Below are positions 100 to 8,062 of a stretch of 64,000 bases of DNA, piece after piece (the first letter of the stretch is position 1; every line of letters starts with the position of its first letter). Source of the DNA: Ancylobacter crimeensis. GTDB lineage: Bacteria > Pseudomonadota > Alphaproteobacteria > Rhizobiales > Xanthobacteraceae. The stretch is taken from positions 248,001-312,000 of the forward strand of contig NZ_JALKCH010000004.1 in assembly GCF_023016805.1 (NCBI RefSeq). Reading direction: 5' to 3'. A program made the position numbers and the translations under genes. Under the pieces are notes generated by a model, which made no database searches, was not told the origin of the DNA, and saw only the letters and a list, made by a program, of their open reading frames with translations.

Positions 100-1482
100 T
101 CACCGGGCCGAGGCGGTTTTCACCACGGTGATGTCCAGCTTCTTCACCCGGTGCCACAGGCTGCGCTCATTGATGCCGAGCAGCTCCGCCGCCTTCACCT
201 GCACGCCATCCACCTGCTTCAGCGCCGCGAGGATCTGCCTGCGCTCGTAGTCGGCGAGTGCGGCGTCGAGGTCGATGGGGAAGGACGGCTGGTCGGTGCG
301 CGGTGCCTGTCGCTCGAAGAGATAGGGCGGCAGGTCGGAGGCTTCGATCACCCCGCCGCGCGCGGAGATGAGGGAGCGTTCCACGCAGTTCTGCAATTCG
401 CGGATATTGCCCGGCCAGCGATAGCTGGTGAGCGCGCGCACGGCGTCGGGGCTGAAGGCGACGTTGCGCCGGCCTAGCGAATAGCCGAGCTCGTCGGAAA
501 AGCGCTTCAGCAGCGGGGGAATGTCCTCCACCCGCTCGCGCAAAGGCGGCAGAGCGATGGGGAAGACGGCGAGGCGATAATAGAGGTCCTCGCGGAAATC
601 GCCGGAGGCGACCATCGCCTTGAGATCGCGATTGGTGGCGGCGACGATACGCACATCCGCTGCCCGGCTGGCGGTGGCGCCGACCGGTTCATAGGCCCGC
701 TCCTGCAGCACGCGCAGGATCTTGGCCTGCAGGGCGAGCGGCATGTCGCCGACCTCGTCGAGGAACAGCGTGCCTCCCTCGGCCTGCGCGAAGCGCCCCG
801 CGCGGTTGGCGACGGCTCCCGTGAAGCTGCCCTTCACATGGCCGAAGAACTCGCTTTCCAGAAGGTTCTCGGGGATCGCCGCGCAGTTCACCGCAACGAA
901 GGGCTTTCGCTGGCGAGGGCTGTTGAAGTGGATGGCGCGGGCGACGACTTCCTTGCCGGTCCCGCTCTCCCCGGTGATGAGCACGGTGGTTTTCTGCTCG
1001 CACACTTCGCTGATCGCGCGGATCACCTTCTGGAAGCTGGCCGAGACGCCCAGCAACATGTCGAACTTGTAGCGGCCTGCCAGTTCCTGCCGCAACCGCT
1101 CATTGTCGCGCAGCGCGTCCTGCAGCTTGAGGGCGTTGGCGAGGGCGCGGTTGAGGTGGTCGATCTCGATGGGCTTGTCGATATAGTCGTGGGCACCGTC
1201 CTTGATCGCCTGCACGGCGTCGCGGACGGTGGAATAGGCGGTCATGATGATGACCGGCATGGTCGGATGCCGCCGCCTTATCTCGGTGAGCAGCGTCTGC
1301 CCGCTCATCCCCGGCATGCGCAGGTCGGTGAGCACGAGATCGACGCTTTCGCGCTCCAGCAGGTCGATTGCCGCGCTGCCGCTTTCCGCCGTGAGGGCTC
1401 GGTAGCCCTGCGCCTCCAGCGTCCCGCCGAGCACGTCCAGCAGCCGCACCTCGTCGTCAACGATCAGGATGGTGTGCGACAT
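100..1482 (-). CDS. Sigma54-dependent two-component response regulator (NtrC family)
   Basis: The 460-residue protein has an N-terminal receiver domain with the phosphoacceptor Asp near residue 53 (LTDLRMPG). A central AAA+ domain carries the Walker A motif GESGTGKE near 171 and the sigma54-contact loop as GSFTGA (218-223) instead of the usual GAFTGA. A Fis-type helix-turn-helix lies at the C terminus. It should bind an upstream enhancer and drive ATP-dependent opening of sigma54 promoters when phosphorylated. The ATG at 1482 was chosen because the receiver domain begins there. It overlaps the kinase gene by 26 bp, so the kinase is the obvious partner. The two sigma54 promoters at 7752-7970 are the likely targets. 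Family assignment is certain; targets are inferred. Confidence 0.95.
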   Translation of the reverse strand: MSHTILIVDDEVRLLDVLGGTLEAQGYRALTAESGSAAIDLLERESVDLVLTDLRMPGMSGQTLLTEIRRRHPTMPVIIMTAYSTVRDAVQAIKDGAHDYIDKPIEIDHLNRALANALKLQDALRDNERLRQELAGRYKFDMLLGVSASFQKVIRAISEVCEQKTTVLITGESGTGKEVVARAIHFNSPRQRKPFVAVNCAAIPENLLESEFFGHVKGSFTGAVANRAGRFAQAEGGTLFLDEVGDMPLALQAKILRVLQERAYEPVGATASRAADVRIVAATNRDLKAMVASGDFREDLYYRLAVFPIALPPLRERVEDIPPLLKRFSDELGYSLGRRNVAFSPDAVRALTSYRWPGNIRELQNCVERSLISARGGVIEASDLPPYLFERQAPRTDQPSFPIDLDAALADYERRQILAALKQVDGVQVKAAELLGINERSLWHRVKKLDITVVKTASAR

Positions 1483-3262
1483 CGTCGAGGCTCTCTGAGA
1501 GAAGCGGTAGTACCAGATCGAAGCTCGCGCCGCCGGACGGTTCGTTGCGGGCCTCGATCCAGCCGCCATGGCTTTCCGCGACGGCGAACACCTTTGCCAG
1601 TCCGAGACCGGTGCCGGTGGCCTTGGTGGTGACGAAGGGGTCGAAGATCCGTCCCAGCAGGTCCGGCCGGATGCCGGGCCCGTTGTCGGAAACGACAATA
1701 TGCACCTCGCCGTCTTCTTGCGCGATACGGATCACGAGCCGGGGAGGCTGTCCCGGTTCGTGCGGAGAATCCGGCGCGCGCTCCATGGCCTCGGCGGCGT
1801 TGAGCACCAGATTGAGGCATGCCTGCACGAGCTGGTCGAGATCGCCATTGACCAGGGCATCGGGTGCCTCGTCCACGATTTCGACCGTCACGTTGCGGCG
1901 TTCCAGTTCGCCCTGGCAAAAGCCGAGCACGCGCGCCACCAGTTCGCCGGGGCGGATGGCGGAGGTGCGCAGGGGCGGGGTGGCGAAGCTCAGGAAGTCG
2001 CGGATCAGCCGGTCGATGCGCCGCACCTCGTCCACCACATAGCCGAGCCGGCGCAGCTCGACCGGCGAGAGGCTGCTGCTGCCCTGCAGAAGCTCGGCCG
2101 AAGTCTTGATGATGCCGAGCGGGTTGCGCACCTCGTGCGCGAGGCCGGCGGCGACTTCGCCCAGCGTCGTCATGCGCTCGCGCCGGCGCAGCTTCGCCTC
2201 CATCTTGCGAAAGGCCTCGAGCTGGCGCGCCATCGAATTGAAGGCCGTGGCGAGCTGGCCCAGCTCATCGCCGCCGCGCACCTCGACACGCTGGCTGAAA
2301 TCGCCCGTGGCGATGGCGTTGACACCCTGCGCGAGGCGGATCAGCGGGCGGGTCAGCACGCTGGAGAGCATCAGTCCGGCGACCACCGAGATGAACATGC
2401 CGACCAGGAAGATGCCGAGGAAGAGGTTGCTGCGGGTGATCCAGCCGGTGCCCCCGCCCTGCAGCGCGCAATAGACGACGCCGACCAACTGGTCGCCCGA
2501 GCGAAGCGGCGTGAAGATCTGGATCCCCGCGCCATAGCGGTGGCCGCTGATGAAGGGGGCCGAGGGGTCCGCCGCCGCAAGGCGTTCGGCCATCGCCCTG
2601 TCCAGCGGGGGTGCCTGCGCGGTTCCGGTCTGGGAGGAGTACAGGCGCTCGAAGCTGTCGCCGATCTTGTAATAGACGCGGATTTCCAGCGACTGCATCG
2701 CGTTCATCGAATTGATGAAGCCGTCGTCGATCCATGTGCCGAGCAGAACCCGGTACTGTCGGCCATTGACCTCGAAGGAGCGTTCGCCCGCCACCAGCAG
2801 CACGTCGCGGCCCTGGGCAGTGTAGAGATAGACATAGAGCCCATCGGCGAACTGGATCTTCTGCAGGTGCTCGATCGGCTTGGAGGAGAAGACCATCTTG
2901 CCCTGGTCGTCGAGGATCACCAGCAGGTCGTAGCCGAGCGCGTCGGCCATGTCGTTGATGCCGGAGGGCAGCGCTTCCGAAGCGGAGGAGACGAGCGGCG
3001 TCAGCAGCCCCTGCTCGATCAGGCTCTGGGCGAAATGGCCCGTCTCTTCGCGTTCGTCGCGCACATTGGCGATGAAGAAGCGGGAAATCTGGTAGAGCCA
3101 GTCCTCGACCTCGTTATGGAAGGTCGTCGCCACGACCTGCGTCGCCATATAGGTCGCGACCAGCATGGGCAGCACGCTGACCGCGCAGAGCGTGGCGATG
3201 AGCTTCCAGCGGATCGAACGCATCGGCAGCGACCAGGAAGGCAGCGACGGCGCACCGTTCAC
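1457..3262 (-). CDS. Membrane sensor histidine kinase, partner of the sigma54 regulator
   Basis: The 601-residue protein has a membrane segment at about 20-42, a periplasmic region of about 235 residues, and a second membrane segment at about 280-303. HAMP, HisKA (phosphorylated His near 376 in LAHEVRNP) and HATPase domains follow, the last with an N-box (NLVLNAAEAM), a DNGPG box and a TGLGL box. The large outside domain suggests detection of a periplasmic or membrane ligand; its size and two-part look resemble a Cache-type sensor, but I cannot prove that fold. The start overlaps the preceding SMR-type gene by 4 bp (ATGA) and its end overlaps the regulator gene, so kinase and regulator are co-translated with the operon they probably control. 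Confidence 0.93.
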   Translation of the reverse strand: MNGAPSLPSWSLPMRSIRWKLIATLCAVSVLPMLVATYMATQVVATTFHNEVEDWLYQISRFFIANVRDEREETGHFAQSLIEQGLLTPLVSSASEALPSGINDMADALGYDLLVILDDQGKMVFSSKPIEHLQKIQFADGLYVYLYTAQGRDVLLVAGERSFEVNGRQYRVLLGTWIDDGFINSMNAMQSLEIRVYYKIGDSFERLYSSQTGTAQAPPLDRAMAERLAAADPSAPFISGHRYGAGIQIFTPLRSGDQLVGVVYCALQGGGTGWITRSNLFLGIFLVGMFISVVAGLMLSSVLTRPLIRLAQGVNAIATGDFSQRVEVRGGDELGQLATAFNSMARQLEAFRKMEAKLRRRERMTTLGEVAAGLAHEVRNPLGIIKTSAELLQGSSSLSPVELRRLGYVVDEVRRIDRLIRDFLSFATPPLRTSAIRPGELVARVLGFCQGELERRNVTVEIVDEAPDALVNGDLDQLVQACLNLVLNAAEAMERAPDSPHEPGQPPRLVIRIAQEDGEVHIVVSDNGPGIRPDLLGRIFDPFVTTKATGTGLGLAKVFAVAESHGGWIEARNEPSGGASFDLVLPLLSESLDDVAHHPDR

Positions 3263-3660: not shown

Positions 3661-4793
3661 GCGGCGGCCTTTGTCAGTTCCGCGATGGCAGGGTCGAAGC
3701 GGTCCAGCGCCACCACGCGGGCGACAAGGCGCAATGTCGCATTCAGCACCGCATTGCGATGGCGGAAATATTGCCAGTTGGCGTGCAGCCGGCAACCGAG
3801 CCGCAGCTTGGGGCCATAGAAGGCCTGCCCGCTCTGGTAGATCGGGATGCCGGCCTCGATGCAGTAGCGCACATTCACCAGCCAGCTATTGAAGTACAGG
3901 TTGTAGCGGCGCACGGCGTCGTAATCCATGCCGATATACTTGTCGATCAACCGACCGTCGCTCTCGATCATGAAGTTGAACGCGACGAGACGGTTGCCCG
4001 CCCAGTAGAGCATCACGCTGGTTCGCGGAGCCATCTGCCGGGTCACCTCGTCGAAATAGGCGCCGGGCAGATGCTCGAACTGCAGCTCGCTATGCGCCAC
4101 CGTCTGCTGGTACAGATCCTCGATCGCCGGCACGATGTCGTCGATGGTGCGACGCTGCTCGATGCGCAGTTCGTCCAGCGCCTTCATCTTGCGGCGCATG
4201 TCCTTGCGGGTCGCCTTGCTGAGGCTGGCGAGGTAGTCCTCGAAGCTGGCATAGGGCAGGTCGAGACAGGCGGTCGGCAGGCCCGACAGCCGGGTATAGC
4301 CACCCTCCGCCAGCCGGTCCCTCCACACCGGCATGTCCCGCTCCGGCACATCTTTCACCGCGATGAGGTGATAGCCGTTGCGGTGACCATAGGCCTGAAG
4401 CGCCGCCATCATCGCGCCGAGCAGTTCACCACGCCGTGCGGGTGCGACATGGGGCGCGAAGCCGAGATGGCAGGTTTCCGCCACCGGCGAGCCGAAGGCC
4501 AGCATGCGCATCGACATCAGGCCGGGCATCAGCCGGTAGAGCCGGTCGGTGAGCCGCCGAAGCGGACCCTGCAGCGTGGTGTCGAGCCGATAGGTGGTGC
4601 CGAAGGCGGGCGCGACGGCAATGAGGCGGCCTTCTTCGCGCAGGGCGACGTAGAACCAGGTGAAGTCCGGCGGGCCCGCGGCTTCGCAGGCGCTGTAGAA
4701 CGACCAGTCCTCGGCTTCCCCGGGAAAGCAGCGGTTCCACTCCTCGGGCGAGAAGGCGTGGATCGAGGTGGCGATGGTGCTGTCACAGGCCAT
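3657..4793 (-). CDS. FemAB/GNAT-like acyl- or aminoacyl-transferase
   Basis: The 378-residue protein resembles the FemAB-like group of double GNAT folds. A typical segment is LSKATRKDMRRKMKAL near the middle, followed by the C-terminal GNAT half with YIGMDYDAVRRYNLYFNSW. Relatives add amino-acid or acyl groups to peptidoglycan precursors, polysaccharides or other amines. No signal peptide is visible, so it should act at the cytoplasmic face. The reading frame overlaps the hydrolase gene by 11 bp and the SMR-type gene by 4 bp, which indicates tight coupling. It could equally be an N-acyl-amino-acid synthase. The fold assignment is fairly safe; the substrate is unknown. Confidence 0.75.
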   Translation of the reverse strand: MACDSTIATSIHAFSPEEWNRCFPGEAEDWSFYSACEAAGPPDFTWFYVALREEGRLIAVAPAFGTTYRLDTTLQGPLRRLTDRLYRLMPGLMSMRMLAFGSPVAETCHLGFAPHVAPARRGELLGAMMAALQAYGHRNGYHLIAVKDVPERDMPVWRDRLAEGGYTRLSGLPTACLDLPYASFEDYLASLSKATRKDMRRKMKALDELRIEQRRTIDDIVPAIEDLYQQTVAHSELQFEHLPGAYFDEVTRQMAPRTSVMLYWAGNRLVAFNFMIESDGRLIDKYIGMDYDAVRRYNLYFNSWLVNVRYCIEAGIPIYQSGQAFYGPKLRLGCRLHANWQYFRHRNAVLNATLRLVARVVALDRFDPAIAELTKAAA

Positions 4794-5691
4794 AGGCCGG
4801 CTCCTGTTCGGCGAGCGGAAAGGCGATGGCGGTGTCGCCGCGCCCGGTGCGGGCCGGTGCGCGCGGCAAGGCCGGCTCGGCCCGGCGCGCCTCCAGCCGA
4901 CGCAGGAAATCGAGCGAATGGGCGACCACGAGGTCGCGTTCCCGGTCGATGGTGATCATGTGGTAACTGTCCTCCAGCAGGATCTTCTCCGCCTGTCCGC
5001 CGAGCCGTGCGGCGAGGAACGAGGCGTTGCGCACGCTGGCGACGTCGTCCTCGCGGGCCTGCAGGATGAGGGTCGGGGTGCGGATCGCGCCGGCTTCGCG
5101 CTTCACCCGGGCGATGATGCGCAGCAATTCCCGAAGCGAGAGGCCGGACATGTAGAGATGGCCGGCGGCGGCGGCATCGCCCGCCTCCATGGCGTTGACG
5201 ATGCGCGCGCGCAGCCGCTCGTCCTTGATGCCGTAGGGATAGGCCTCGCGAAAGCGGATGAAGCGGCCGAAGCCCAGTGTCACCGCGCTGCGCAGGAGGA
5301 TGCTGGCCTTGGGAATGCTCCAGCCGTCATAGAACAGGGTCGGCGCATAGGCGAGGCAGCCGGCCACCTGGCCGGGCCGCTCGCGGGCGACCAGCAGCGC
5401 GAGCAGCGCGCCCATGGAGAGCCCGCCCACGATCACCGTCTCATGGGTGGTGCGGATGTGGTCGAAGGCGGAGAGCGCGCTCGCCAGCCAGTCCTCGGCG
5501 GTGGTGGCGATGAGATCGGCCTCGCTGCCGCAATGACCCGCCAGCTTCGCGCCATAGACGGAATATCCCGCCCGCGCGAGGCCCTTGGCGGTGATCTTCA
5601 TCTCGCTCGGCGTGCCGGTCAGCCCGTGGACGAGCAGCACGGCGGTGGGGCCGCCGGGATAGTGGAAATCAATGAAAGGATGGGCAGGCAT
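4783..5691 (-). CDS. Alpha/beta hydrolase, carboxylesterase/lipase type
   Basis: The 302-residue cytoplasmic hydrolase has an oxyanion-hole motif LLVHGLTG near 20-26, the nucleophile elbow GGLSMG with Ser near 92, an acid near Asp215 and the catalytic His near 244 (DSYHM). This triad order fits Est30/monoacylglycerol-lipase-like carboxylesterases. It should cleave an ester, for instance an acyl or aminoacyl ester. The ATG at 5691 was chosen because the sequence before it in the same frame has no protein-like features and would overlap the preceding gene deeply. Its start lies 8 bp after the stop of the upstream SMR-type gene. It could trim or activate the compound handled by the neighbouring transferase. 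Confidence 0.85.
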   Translation of the reverse strand: MPAHPFIDFHYPGGPTAVLLVHGLTGTPSEMKITAKGLARAGYSVYGAKLAGHCGSEADLIATTAEDWLASALSAFDHIRTTHETVIVGGLSMGALLALLVARERPGQVAGCLAYAPTLFYDGWSIPKASILLRSAVTLGFGRFIRFREAYPYGIKDERLRARIVNAMEAGDAAAAGHLYMSGLSLRELLRIIARVKREAGAIRTPTLILQAREDDVASVRNASFLAARLGGQAEKILLEDSYHMITIDRERDLVVAHSLDFLRRLEARRAEPALPRAPARTGRGDTAIAFPLAEQEPAYGL

Positions 5692-5699
5692 GGTGGGTC

Positions 5700-6065
5700 T
5701 CACGCGGAAAGGCTGACGAGAAATGCGCCGAAGGTGATGAACGCGGTGCCGAACCAGCGTTCGGCCGATACCGGTTCGTCGAGGACGAAACGTCCCGCGA
5801 TCGCCACCCCGCAATAGGCGAGGCTGGCGACCGGGAAGGCGATGCTGAGCGGCACATGGGCGAGCACGAACAGCCAGCCGACCAGCTCCAGCGCATAGGT
5901 GGCCACCCCGAGCCCGATGAAAGGCGACGTCACGATGCGCTTCCACACCGGCAACCCCTCGGTGGCGGCGTTCAGGCCGTGCTTGAAGAAGAGTTGCCCG
6001 GCGACATCGAGCAGCACGGTCGCGACCAGCACGGCGACCGGAAGGGTGAGAGCCGGGACCGTCAT
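5700..6065 (-). CDS. Small SMR/EamA-type membrane protein (first of two)
   Basis: The 121-residue protein has four predicted helices, starting with LPVAVLVATVLLDVAGQLFF, and ends with the family-typical FGTAFITFGAFLVSLSA. It has the size and pattern of SMR/ArnE-ArnF-type exchangers and is clearly different in sequence from the second SMR-type protein at 3259-3660. Its ATG overlaps the stop of the arginase-fold gene (ATGA at 6062-6065). Two unlike half-size transporters in one operon usually form one heterodimer, with opposite membrane orientation of the subunits. The cargo may be the product of the surrounding enzymes; this is inference. Confidence 0.75.
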   Translation of the reverse strand: MTVPALTLPVAVLVATVLLDVAGQLFFKHGLNAATEGLPVWKRIVTSPFIGLGVATYALELVGWLFVLAHVPLSIAFPVASLAYCGVAIAGRFVLDEPVSAERWFGTAFITFGAFLVSLSA

Positions 6066-6979
6066 GCGAAGCACTCCTCGAAGGTGGCGATCAGGCGCTC
6101 ATTGGTGCGGGCATTGATCGCCGCCGCATCGCCGCCACGCGGGCGGTCGCGCTGGTCGAGGAACGCCTCGAGGCTCTTGAAGGGCTGGCGGTAGGGCGCG
6201 GGATTGTAGTCGCCGCAGATGTCCGCCCCGACGATCTCGCATTCGCGCGCCAGATGCCGGATCGCGGCCTCGACGCAGGCGAGCGGCAACTCGCCCTGAT
6301 CCCAGTTGGTCAGCGCCTCGTCCGGGCCGAGCACATCCTTGTCGATGGTGATCCAGACCCGGCGCGTCGGGATCGCGGAGAGCAGGTCGTCCAGCACGCC
6401 GCCCCAGTCCTGTGCGCACAGGTTCCGCCAGCGGATCTCGCCGTCGCCGACCTCGTGCCCCTTGCCGGCTGCGACCGGCACCCGGATCTGCGAGGGCTCA
6501 TGGCGCCATGGCAGCACCACCAGCGAGCCTTCCGACAGCGCGGCGAGGTTGGCGCCCTTGCGGTCCGGCCGAACCAGATCCTCGCTGCAGGGGCCAAGCG
6601 TGATGACGCGGCGCACATGCGGCATGGCGAGGGCTTCGTTGACCCAGCCGCCGCAATGGCGGCGGGGGAAGGTGCGGCACCAGTCGGGATGGTTGTCGAA
6701 ATGCACCACGGTCAGCGGGCCGGCGGCGGCCTCGATGAAGGCGGCGGTGAGGTGGTGGAAGTCGCCGGAGCCGAACAGCGTCAACGTCGGGCTGCTGCCC
6801 TCGGCGAGGTCGCGCCAGCCATCGGCGAAGGCGTCATAATCGCGCGAGCGGCTCCAGAGCCGCAGCTTCGGGCCAAGCGCGGTGAGGTCGTGGCGCCGGG
6901 CCTTTCCCTCGGCCAGCCGGCGCGCGATGGGCGGCTGGGCGGGCAGGGTACCGTCGAGATCGAGGATGCGTATGTCCAT
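6062..6979 (-). CDS. Arginase-fold (ureohydrolase superfamily) enzyme
   Basis: The 305-residue protein keeps the two-metal signature of the arginase/agmatinase fold: GSGDFHH (His near 75), HFDNHPDW (Asp95, His97, Asp99) and TIDKDVLGPDE (Asp213, Asp215). Overall similarity to arginase is low and the family's usual SxDxDxxDP motif is altered. It could act on a guanidino or other C-N bond in an unusual amine, or be a deacetylase-like relative. A good ribosome site (GGAGG) stands 8 bp before the ATG at 6979, which is 15 bp after the stop of the HAD phosphatase gene. The metal site is seen in the sequence; the substrate is unknown. Confidence 0.75.
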   Translation of the reverse strand: MDIRILDLDGTLPAQPPIARRLAEGKARRHDLTALGPKLRLWSRSRDYDAFADGWRDLAEGSSPTLTLFGSGDFHHLTAAFIEAAAGPLTVVHFDNHPDWCRTFPRRHCGGWVNEALAMPHVRRVITLGPCSEDLVRPDRKGANLAALSEGSLVVLPWRHEPSQIRVPVAAGKGHEVGDGEIRWRNLCAQDWGGVLDDLLSAIPTRRVWITIDKDVLGPDEALTNWDQGELPLACVEAAIRHLARECEIVGADICGDYNPAPYRQPFKSLEAFLDQRDRPRGGDAAAINARTNERLIATFEECFA

Positions 6980-6994
6980 GACGCGTTCCTCCGC

Positions 6995-7693
6995 TCAGCG
7001 CTCGCCCTGCCCGGTGGCCAGCGCCTCGTCGAGCCGCGGTACCGGCATGGCGAGCAGGCGCAGCAGCACCGGAGCGACCTCGGCAAAACCCTCGAAAGCG
7101 TGATGGGGGATGCCGTTCTCACCGCAATATTCCACCAGCCGATCCTTCGCGAAGACGAAGTCCACCCGGTTGGAGACGCAGAAATCCGAGCGTCCGTCGC
7201 CGATCAGCACCACCGGCTGGCCGGTCAGCGCGTTTTCCTGCGCGATGGCGCATTTGCAGGTGCCGGCTCCCGCCCCGCAATCGGCCGCCGCGCGCGGGCT
7301 CGACATGGCGAAACGGTTGCCGGGCCGGAAATCGAGATGATTGGCGAGGATCGGCACGCCGGTAATGCCGTTTGCAGCGAGAATCCGCGCGATCGCGTAG
7401 TCCAGCCCGTCGCTGACGATGGCGAGCGGCAAGCCTTCCTCGCGGCAGAACGCGACGAAATCCGGGAAGGCCGGGTCGATGCGCACGCTGTCGAGCAGGG
7501 CGTCGAGCGCGGCGCGGCCGGCTCGCATCAGCGCCACCTGCTGCGCCATGCACGCCGCCGATCCGATCTCGCCCGCCTGCCATCGCTCCTCGATCGCCTG
7601 CCAGCCGGGTTCGGCGAAGGCCTCGAGCAGGAGGTCGGTCACGTCGCAGAGCGAGACGGTGCCGTCGAAGTCGCAGAGCAGTCGATAGGTCAT
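6995..7693 (-). CDS. HAD-superfamily phosphatase, MtnX/SerB-like
   Basis: The 232-residue protein is the first gene of the minus-strand operon. Motif I is DFDGT with the nucleophile Asp near 8 and the acid-base Asp near 10. Motif II is the Ser in IVSDG, and the late motif is GDGRSDF. The cap placement and length fit the HAD-IB group that includes phosphoserine phosphatase and MtnX. No other methionine-salvage gene is nearby, so a role in that pathway is unlikely. It more likely removes phosphate from an intermediate made by the neighbouring enzymes. Its 5' leader of about 47 nt begins at the sigma54 promoter at 7752-7766. Confidence 0.85.
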   Translation of the reverse strand: MTYRLLCDFDGTVSLCDVTDLLLEAFAEPGWQAIEERWQAGEIGSAACMAQQVALMRAGRAALDALLDSVRIDPAFPDFVAFCREEGLPLAIVSDGLDYAIARILAANGITGVPILANHLDFRPGNRFAMSSPRAAADCGAGAGTCKCAIAQENALTGQPVVLIGDGRSDFCVSNRVDFVFAKDRLVEYCGENGIPHHAFEGFAEVAPVLLRLLAMPVPRLDEALATGQGER

Positions 7694-7751
7694 GCGGGTC
7701 GATCCGGAATAGGCGGGCCAGAGGCCGCGAGGTGCGTTGGACCTCTCCTGC

Positions 7752-7766
7752 GCAATCGCCGTGCCA
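7752..7766 (-). promoter_or_regulatory. Sigma54 (-24/-12) promoter for the eight-gene operon
   Basis: Read on the minus strand, the sequence is TGGCACG, four bases, TTGC, an exact match to the sigma54 consensus with the GG and GC doublets 12 bp apart. Transcription should start near 7740, giving a leader of about 47 nt before the HAD phosphatase gene. It forms a back-to-back pair with the promoter at 7956-7970. Confidence 0.9.
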
Positions 7767-7783
7767 ATCTCGGAAATTTCGCA

Positions 7784-7796
7784 TATCTTATTGATA
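7784..7796 (-). promoter_or_regulatory. Possible IHF site
   Basis: On the minus strand TATCAA, four bases, ATA nearly matches the IHF consensus WATCAA-N4-TTR, with one mismatch in the last element. It sits in an AT-rich stretch between the central inverted repeat and the leftward sigma54 promoter, where DNA bending commonly helps an enhancer-bound activator reach the polymerase. Support is positional and weak. Confidence 0.35.
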
Positions 7797-7850
7797 TATA
7801 ATGATTATTTTATCAGGCGGCGGCGAGCCCTCTTTCGGATCTCCGCAATA

Positions 7851-7871
7851 CGGCTCCAAAAAATGGAGCCG
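7851..7871. promoter_or_regulatory. Central inverted repeat, probable enhancer for the NtrC-type regulator
   Basis: CGGCTCCA, five A residues, TGGAGCCG is a perfect 8-5-8 inverted repeat. Its centre (7861) is 96 bp from the first G of the -24 element of both flanking sigma54 promoters, which is the range and symmetry expected for one activator site serving two promoters. It lies between divergent genes, so a transcription terminator is not expected here. The protein that binds it is inferred to be the regulator at 100-1482. Confidence 0.8.
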
Positions 7872-7955
7872 CCCCCGAAAAATGGCGGGCCCGACCTCCA
7901 CAATATGGGGAAGCTCTTTCATACAAAGCGTTGCGAACGCTGGGGAATGTGCATC

Positions 7956-7970
7956 TGGCACGGGCGTTGC
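7956..7970 (+). promoter_or_regulatory. Sigma54 (-24/-12) promoter for the aminotransferase
   Basis: TGGCACG, four bases, TTGC matches the sigma54 consensus exactly, with a C before it as in the extended consensus. Transcription should begin near 7982, about 81 nt before the GTG start of the aminotransferase. The same transcript probably continues into the MipA-type gene 30 bp downstream. Confidence 0.9.
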
Positions 7971-8062
7971 GCTGGGATTGGCAGCCGGCGCCGGCCCATC
8001 GGGGTTCGGCGCCTTCCCCGCCTAACCCGGCCGCACCCCGGCCCATCGTCAGGAAGACCCTC

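Follow-up and report, generated by a model that had tools for sequence, protein, structure and literature searches.

A candidate common enhancer between two divergent sigma54 promoters in a conserved gene cluster of Ancylobacter crimeensis

Divergent sigma54 promoters under a single activator, FhlA, were reportedly described by Lutz et al. 1990. FhlA is tabulated as an activator of both the hyc and the hyp operon (PMC4987338). In the ZraP/ZraSR system of E. coli and Salmonella, divergent sigma54 promoters stand under ZraR (PMC4987338, PMC4591121, PMC3844500), which controls both zraSR and zraP (PMC4987338); both sigma54 boxes have been listed (PMC4591121), and in the tabulation of PMC4987338 the ZraR enhancer is entered as not known. 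One of these promoters reads an operon that encodes a kinase and a sigma54 regulator. In the zraP/zraSR sequence of E. coli MG1655 the boxes lie 140 bp apart and enclose two GAGT-N7-ACTC sites separated by 31 bp, the midpoint of which is 65.5 and 74.5 bp from the boxes and which we infer to be ZraR sites. Several grouped enhancer sites, all three of them required, are found upstream of the one sigma54 promoter of NorR-regulated norVW (PMC4987338), and DNA looping with the help of IHF is standard for this class of sigma54 enhancers (PMC7057263).

The locus considered here lies in a window of 64,000 nucleotides from Ancylobacter crimeensis, by which we mean the whole stretch of DNA analysed. Its arrangement is of a kind already known from zraP/zraSR: the sequence holds two divergent sigma54 boxes with candidate activator sites between them, and kinase and regulator genes are part of one of the two operons. 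The gene set under control, however, is different. The partner in this locus is an aminotransferase within a biosynthetic cluster, whereas the Zra partner is a small zinc chaperone; the Zra kinase gene comes first in its operon and is followed by the regulator gene, whereas the kinase gene here is located near the end; and regulator and site are distinct, with a 19-bp instead of a 31-bp spacing. The regulator and kinase of this locus score below the NCBIfam cut-offs for ZraPSR orthologues (377.7 bits versus 760 for ZraR, 154.1 versus 479 for ZraS). With hyc/hyp the locus shares divergent sigma54 promoters under one activator, but FhlA is encoded at a distance from hyc/hyp and is not a two-component regulator. 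With norVW it shares the grouping of several enhancer sites, but NorR is an NO-sensing GAF regulator that serves one promoter there. In the literature searched for the cluster, the motif and their precedents, mostly titles and the openings of abstracts, no description of either cluster or motif was recognised.

The genes of the two operons are the following.

6995-7693, minus strand: MtnX-like HAD-IB phosphatase (HAD), first leftward gene; PF12710, TIGR01489 over cut-off
6062-6979, minus strand: arginase-like protein; no Pfam match, the Pseudomonas homologue matching PF00491 Arginase over cut-off
5700-6074, minus strand: small EamA/SMR-type membrane protein 1; PF00892 below the curated cut-off
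4783-5694, minus strand: alpha/beta hydrolase; PF12146
3657-4793, minus strand: FemAB-like GNAT acyltransferase; PF04339, PF13480
3259-3660, minus strand: small EamA/SMR-type membrane protein 2 (ArnE/ArnF-like); PF00892 and ArnE/F models, all below cut-off
1457-3262, minus strand: membrane sensor histidine kinase; HAMP-HisKA-HATPase
100-1521, minus strand: NtrC/AtoC-type sigma54-dependent response regulator, the proposed dyad binder; PF00072, PF00158, PF02954
8063-9400, plus strand: glutamate-1-semialdehyde-aminomutase-like (GSA-like) class III aminotransferase, first rightward gene; PF00202, NF000818 over cut-off

An earlier note on this DNA had the leftward operon end with a sensor kinase and a sigma54-dependent regulator, which is the case (1457-3262 and 100-1521); the largest intergenic gap in the series is 15 bp. 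The regulator combines a receiver, an AAA+ and a Fis HTH domain, as is typical of NtrC-type enhancer-binding response regulators, and its AAA+ loop reads GSFTGA, a variant of GAFTGA, while relatives carry either form. By its score against TIGR00713 (434.6 bits, cut-off 527.3), the rightward protein is GSA-like but not HemL, and comparison with solved structures placed it in the general GSA/class III aminotransferase family and in nothing narrower. In gene order, it is followed after 30 bp by MipA and then by a CoA transferase. The arginase-like protein harbours conserved GSGDFHHL, HxDNHPDW and DKD motifs that suggest a metal site; a profile search of solved structures with its profile and a search of viral contigs yielded no relative.

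Between the first genes of the two operons, the spacer contains six features.

7752-7766, minus strand: sigma54 -24/-12 box of the leftward (HAD to regulator) operon, TGGCACGGCGATTGC, 0 mismatches to TGGCACG-N4-TTGC
7784-7796, minus strand: IHF-like site in the AT-rich tract between enhancer and leftward promoter, 1 mismatch to the consensus WATCARNNNNTTR
7851-7871, no strand: main candidate enhancer dyad CGGCTCCA-AAAAA-TGGAGCCG, centre 7861, with 8-bp arms and a 5-bp loop
7873-7887, no strand: weak second dyad CCCCGAAAAATGGCG, 3 mismatches, 19 bp to the right of the main dyad, centre to centre
7896-7910, no strand: near-perfect dyad CTCCACAATATGGGG, 1 mismatch, 42 bp to the right of the main dyad
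7956-7970, plus strand: sigma54 -24/-12 box of the rightward (aminotransferase) operon, TGGCACGGGCGTTGC, 0 mismatches to TGGCACG-N4-TTGC

The two exact matches to TGGCACG-N4-TTGC, one on each strand, are present as the earlier note had claimed, and both contain the GG and GC dinucleotides in the TGGCAC-N5-TTGC spacing of sigma54 promoters; transcripts are predicted to start near 7740 in the leftward and near 7982 in the rightward operon. The genome possesses an rpoN gene. Short motifs do arise by chance: with two mismatches allowed, the sigma54 motif is no more frequent in the window than chance predicts (28 matches against 27.7 expected), and therefore the exactness and conservation of the boxes carry the weight. 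The genome (4,296,055 bases, 26 contigs) contains, over both strands, six exact matches, including the two boxes here, and two matches to the reversed control pattern. Since there are only six exact boxes in 4.30 Mb, the back-to-back placement of two of them within 219 bp is not a chance event; by our own arithmetic, about 4e-4 divergent exact pairs no more than 250 bp apart would be expected. The perfect inverted repeat at 7851-7871 likewise proved to be as described, with its centre at equal distance from both -24 elements, 95 bp when counted to the T and 96 bp when counted to the first G, and there is no T-run on either side of it, which speaks against a terminator. Its core, CTCCA-N5-TGGAG, is found at four places in the genome (reversed control, 16). 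Other members of a regulon were sought from both ends: no dyad with up to two mismatches occurs in the 300 bp to either side of the four remaining exact boxes, and the 3-kb loci of the three remaining core sites contain no match to a relaxed sigma54 pattern.

This version of the cluster is rare in the window's family. The GSA protein was matched at E 1e-120 or better in none of 197 other sampled genomes of the window's family, and the arginase-like protein at 1e-15 in two of the 384 further genomes sampled from the class, one of which (G463, locus L033, from another family) contains the entire cluster together with both divergent boxes. In a scan of named genomes, the best 80 of at least 556 relatives were kept, comprising six GSA-type loci (L034-L039), 69 Pseudomonas loci and five others (L069, L074, L088, L091, L103). 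The GSA-type loci found outside the window belong to G463 (L033), Labrys (L034-L036), Aureimonas (L037-L038) and Alsobacter (L039). The earlier note had proposed conservation of promoters and palindrome in orthologous loci as a check; in all seven of these loci a sigma54 box precedes HAD and another precedes GSA, and all seven have the dyad. In Aureimonas (two species) and Alsobacter each promoter has a perfect CTCCA-N5-TGGAG dyad of its own; for both promoters together, the window has one perfect dyad and G463 one with a single mismatch; the Labrys form is CTACA-N5-TGTAG. Of the 69 Pseudomonas loci, 55 have a box of the form [TC]GG[CT]A[CT][GA]-N4-[TC]TGC no more than 150 bp before HAD; a perfect CTACA-N5-TGTAG accompanies this box in every case, 61-63 or 72-73 bp further upstream, and the other 14 are loci without a box by that pattern or with incomplete sequence. 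Beyond boxes and dyad, the spacers of related loci have little in common. An origin of the boxes by chance, with a chance or terminator-like palindrome between them, is ruled out by this conservation across families in otherwise dissimilar spacers and by the rarity of exact boxes, only six per genome, and has virtually no probability left.

Some further observations concern these relatives. The regulator HTH is nearly identical across the six aligned GSA-type rows. A clean co-variation of the recognition helix (LWHR or FWYR) with the site (CTCCA or CTACA) was considered and rejected, because Labrys pairs a CTACA site with an LWHR regulator. In Pseudomonas loci (e.g., L042, upstream of 12728) a well-conserved stretch, GCGCAAGCACT-AT-TTGTTTGTAGC, lies directly next to the dyad and contributes a further half site, and a divergent gene seems to begin just past it. 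The open reading frame at 11753-12571 of L042 was discarded as a gene, having no Pfam match and stops in one opposite-strand frame read there.

Taken as a sequence-based proposal, it is highly probable that the spacer constitutes a shared enhancer of two divergent sigma54 promoters, through which the cluster's own regulator switches on both operons. The membrane kinase would activate the neighbouring response regulator, whose dimers would bind the CTCCA-N5-TGGAG dyads centred on 7861. The DNA would then loop, such that the regulator contacts sigma54-RNA polymerase on either side, leftward with the probable help of IHF-induced bending and rightward possibly aided by the extra dyads at 7880 and 7903. 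The enhancer is about nine whole turns away from both promoters (95 bp, approximately 9.05 helical turns), and one complex would therefore face both. The leftward operon, including the gene of the regulator itself, and the rightward aminotransferase would be turned on together, which implies positive autoregulation. The idea of the earlier note that one activator serves two promoters in a self-regulated divergent unit gains support from the conservation of the site and from its co-occurrence with the regulator.

This co-occurrence was assessed by a rule that requires, before HAD, a box with at most three mismatches and a dyad (CTCCA-N5-TGGAG or CTACA-N5-TGTAG) with at most two, 40-135 bp upstream of the box. 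Among the 79 fetched loci with HAD and the regulator, 77 comply, compared to 305 of 18,200 random stretches, the criteria for box, dyad and phase having been fixed after the pattern had already been seen. The two misses are Labrys L035 and L036, where the dyad is at least 140 bp from the HAD box. Seven further loci gave no regulator hit: L064 and L104, which reach the end of the available sequence and have box and dyad, and five that belong to the own-family loci described next. The HAD search in the window's own family returned 17 other loci. Five contain the regulator, and all five have box and dyad; of the eight without a regulator over at least 12 kb downstream (L125-L127, L129, L131-L134), none does, absence being judged within the fetched stretch of each locus. 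Several of these eight negatives are weaker, because they are partial clusters: L127 and L132-L134 consist only of HAD, hydrolase and, in three, the aminotransferase. Four loci incomplete at contig ends or in the stored sequence (L128, L135-L137) do not show box and dyad together. L125, L126, L129 and L131 are related clusters that lack regulator, sigma54 box and dyad alike. The sigma54 control module appears, on these distributions, to be gained or lost as one unit. A repressor or a different activator could in principle occupy the palindrome while the cluster regulator works elsewhere, since the dyad owes its assigned function solely to conservation and co-occurrence; yet the pattern of 77 of 79 loci with the regulator against none of eight without it over at least 12 kb, as well as the fixed relation of the dyad to the sigma54 boxes, make binding by such another factor distinctly improbable.

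With regard to geometry, the earlier note had placed the palindrome exactly midway between the promoters. This holds for the window, where the dyad is 95 bp from both the HAD and the GSA box, but not as a conserved rule, as the corresponding distances are 51/82 bp in G463 and 84/116 bp in Labrys L034. They amount to 72/93 and 74/93 bp in Aureimonas and 83/83 bp in Alsobacter. At the HAD promoters of the own family and of L069 the distance is 81-82 bp, and in Pseudomonas it is 61-63 or 72-73 bp. Exact symmetry was thus dismissed as a functional rule, because the distances vary among relatives. They do lie near one helical phase, close to whole turns (13 lineage values, period 10.5 bp, R 0.82; about 2e-5 in simulation, 1e-5 when periods of 8-13 are scanned), in a test devised after the numbers had been seen and with Pseudomonas values that are not independent. 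A stricter set of 11, which counts the window dyad once and omits the 72-73 class of Pseudomonas as well as the second value for Alsobacter, gave 5e-4. Neither set includes L035, L036 (Labrys being represented by L034), L038 (Aureimonas by L037), L069 or L074. The HAD dyad of L035, at 140 bp, is off phase, and its addition to the set of 14 values gave 2.6e-4; L036 has no dyad within 200 bp of its HAD box. As the distances differ among relatives while the phase is shared, the equal arm length is probably incidental, and helical phase seems to be what is kept.

The earlier note had further spoken of a single palindrome. This is too simple: weaker dyads occur 19 and 42 bp away, and several sites, rather than one palindrome, probably make up the enhancer. 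A weak partner (up to three mismatches of 10) occurs exactly 19 bp away from seven of 13 anchor dyads, while any other offset between 8 and 60 bp has at most one partner among the 13, against a background of 0.7% at each position. Three of these partners, those of the window, G463 and L017, had been spotted before the count, the L017 anchor itself being imperfect, and without these three the figure is four of 10. A dyad at the 42-bp offset is confined to the window among the 13 anchors. Its position invites a different reading, namely two abutting enhancers as in Aureimonas, with the 7861 dyad for the leftward and the 7903 dyad for the rightward promoter. The element at 7896-7910, with only one mismatch, lies in phase at 53 bp (about five turns) from the rightward box, and each promoter of Aureimonas and Alsobacter has a perfect dyad of its own. 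We nonetheless regard two enhancers as unlikely, given that the 7903 dyad is imperfect, that it has no counterpart in G463 (one good dyad, 51/82 bp) or Labrys L034 (84/116 bp), and that 7861 is equally well placed for both boxes.

A single shared enhancer may employ two different looping modes, because an IHF-like site is present on the leftward side only. In a search against the consensus, which covered the promoters of the window, G463, Labrys, Aureimonas and Alsobacter and seven AT-type HAD promoters, a match with no or one mismatch starts exactly 18 bp upstream of the box in all seven of the latter, namely five of the own family (L120-L124), L069 and L074, and none of 2000 shuffles brought all five own-family matches to one place. 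The match lies at 29 in both Alsobacter promoters and at 30 in the HAD promoter of the window, i.e., approximately one turn further. No match with up to one mismatch was detected at the GSA promoter of the window or at any promoter of G463, Labrys and Aureimonas.

The relatives also differ in their aminotransferase. Of 87 loci with HAD, including the window, 77 carry an in-line class III aminotransferase gene on the same strand, eight have the GSA-like enzyme instead (seven on the opposite strand, one on the same strand), two have neither and none has both. Read from these sequences, the rightward gene is a different aminotransferase that replaces the in-line one. In a midpoint-rooted regulator tree of 22 rows (eight GSA-type, four Pseudomonas, 10 others), the eight GSA-type rows were recovered as a single clade (100/99), in which Alsobacter is split off from the remaining seven (87/82). 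Window, G463 and Labrys form a group of their own (90/89) and Aureimonas falls between, at moderate inner supports. In the order of the tree, Alsobacter has two separate promoters with one enhancer apiece, Aureimonas has a divergent pair served by two enhancers, and the window, G463 and Labrys have divergent promoters and one strong common dyad. A stepwise consolidation can tentatively be envisaged, although we rate it as somewhat improbable as a whole: an aminotransferase of another subfamily would have replaced the in-line one and gained its own sigma54 promoter and a copy of the enhancer (Alsobacter), then turned divergent (Aureimonas), whereupon two enhancers would have collapsed into one phased bidirectional enhancer (window, G463, Labrys).

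The product of the cluster is probably an amino-group-bearing envelope or lipid modification that is made on demand, because the genes, judged by the names of their families, encode a phosphatase, an aminotransferase, an arginase-like protein, a hydrolase, an acyltransferase, two ArnE/F-like proteins and, in relatives, a desaturase. The latter, a fatty-acid desaturase, precedes the aminotransferase in the rightward operon of G463 (L033:9992-10888) and of all three Labrys loci (L034-L036). Homologues occur in L103 (465-1307), where a sigma54 box is located 116 bp before the gene, and in 23 of the 69 Pseudomonas loci that were fetched. The presence of this enzyme in relatives suggests that the product is a lipid.

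A cis-code, CTMCA-N5-TGKAG, often with a weak 19-bp partner, and a regulator would hereby be assigned to a conserved sigma54-driven cluster that spans Alphaproteobacteria and Pseudomonas. If the consolidation is true, the series would allow testing how a bacterial enhancer becomes bidirectional, and the natural progression from two enhancers to one would offer a test of how a single enhancer drives divergent promoters and of the limits that helical phase imposes.
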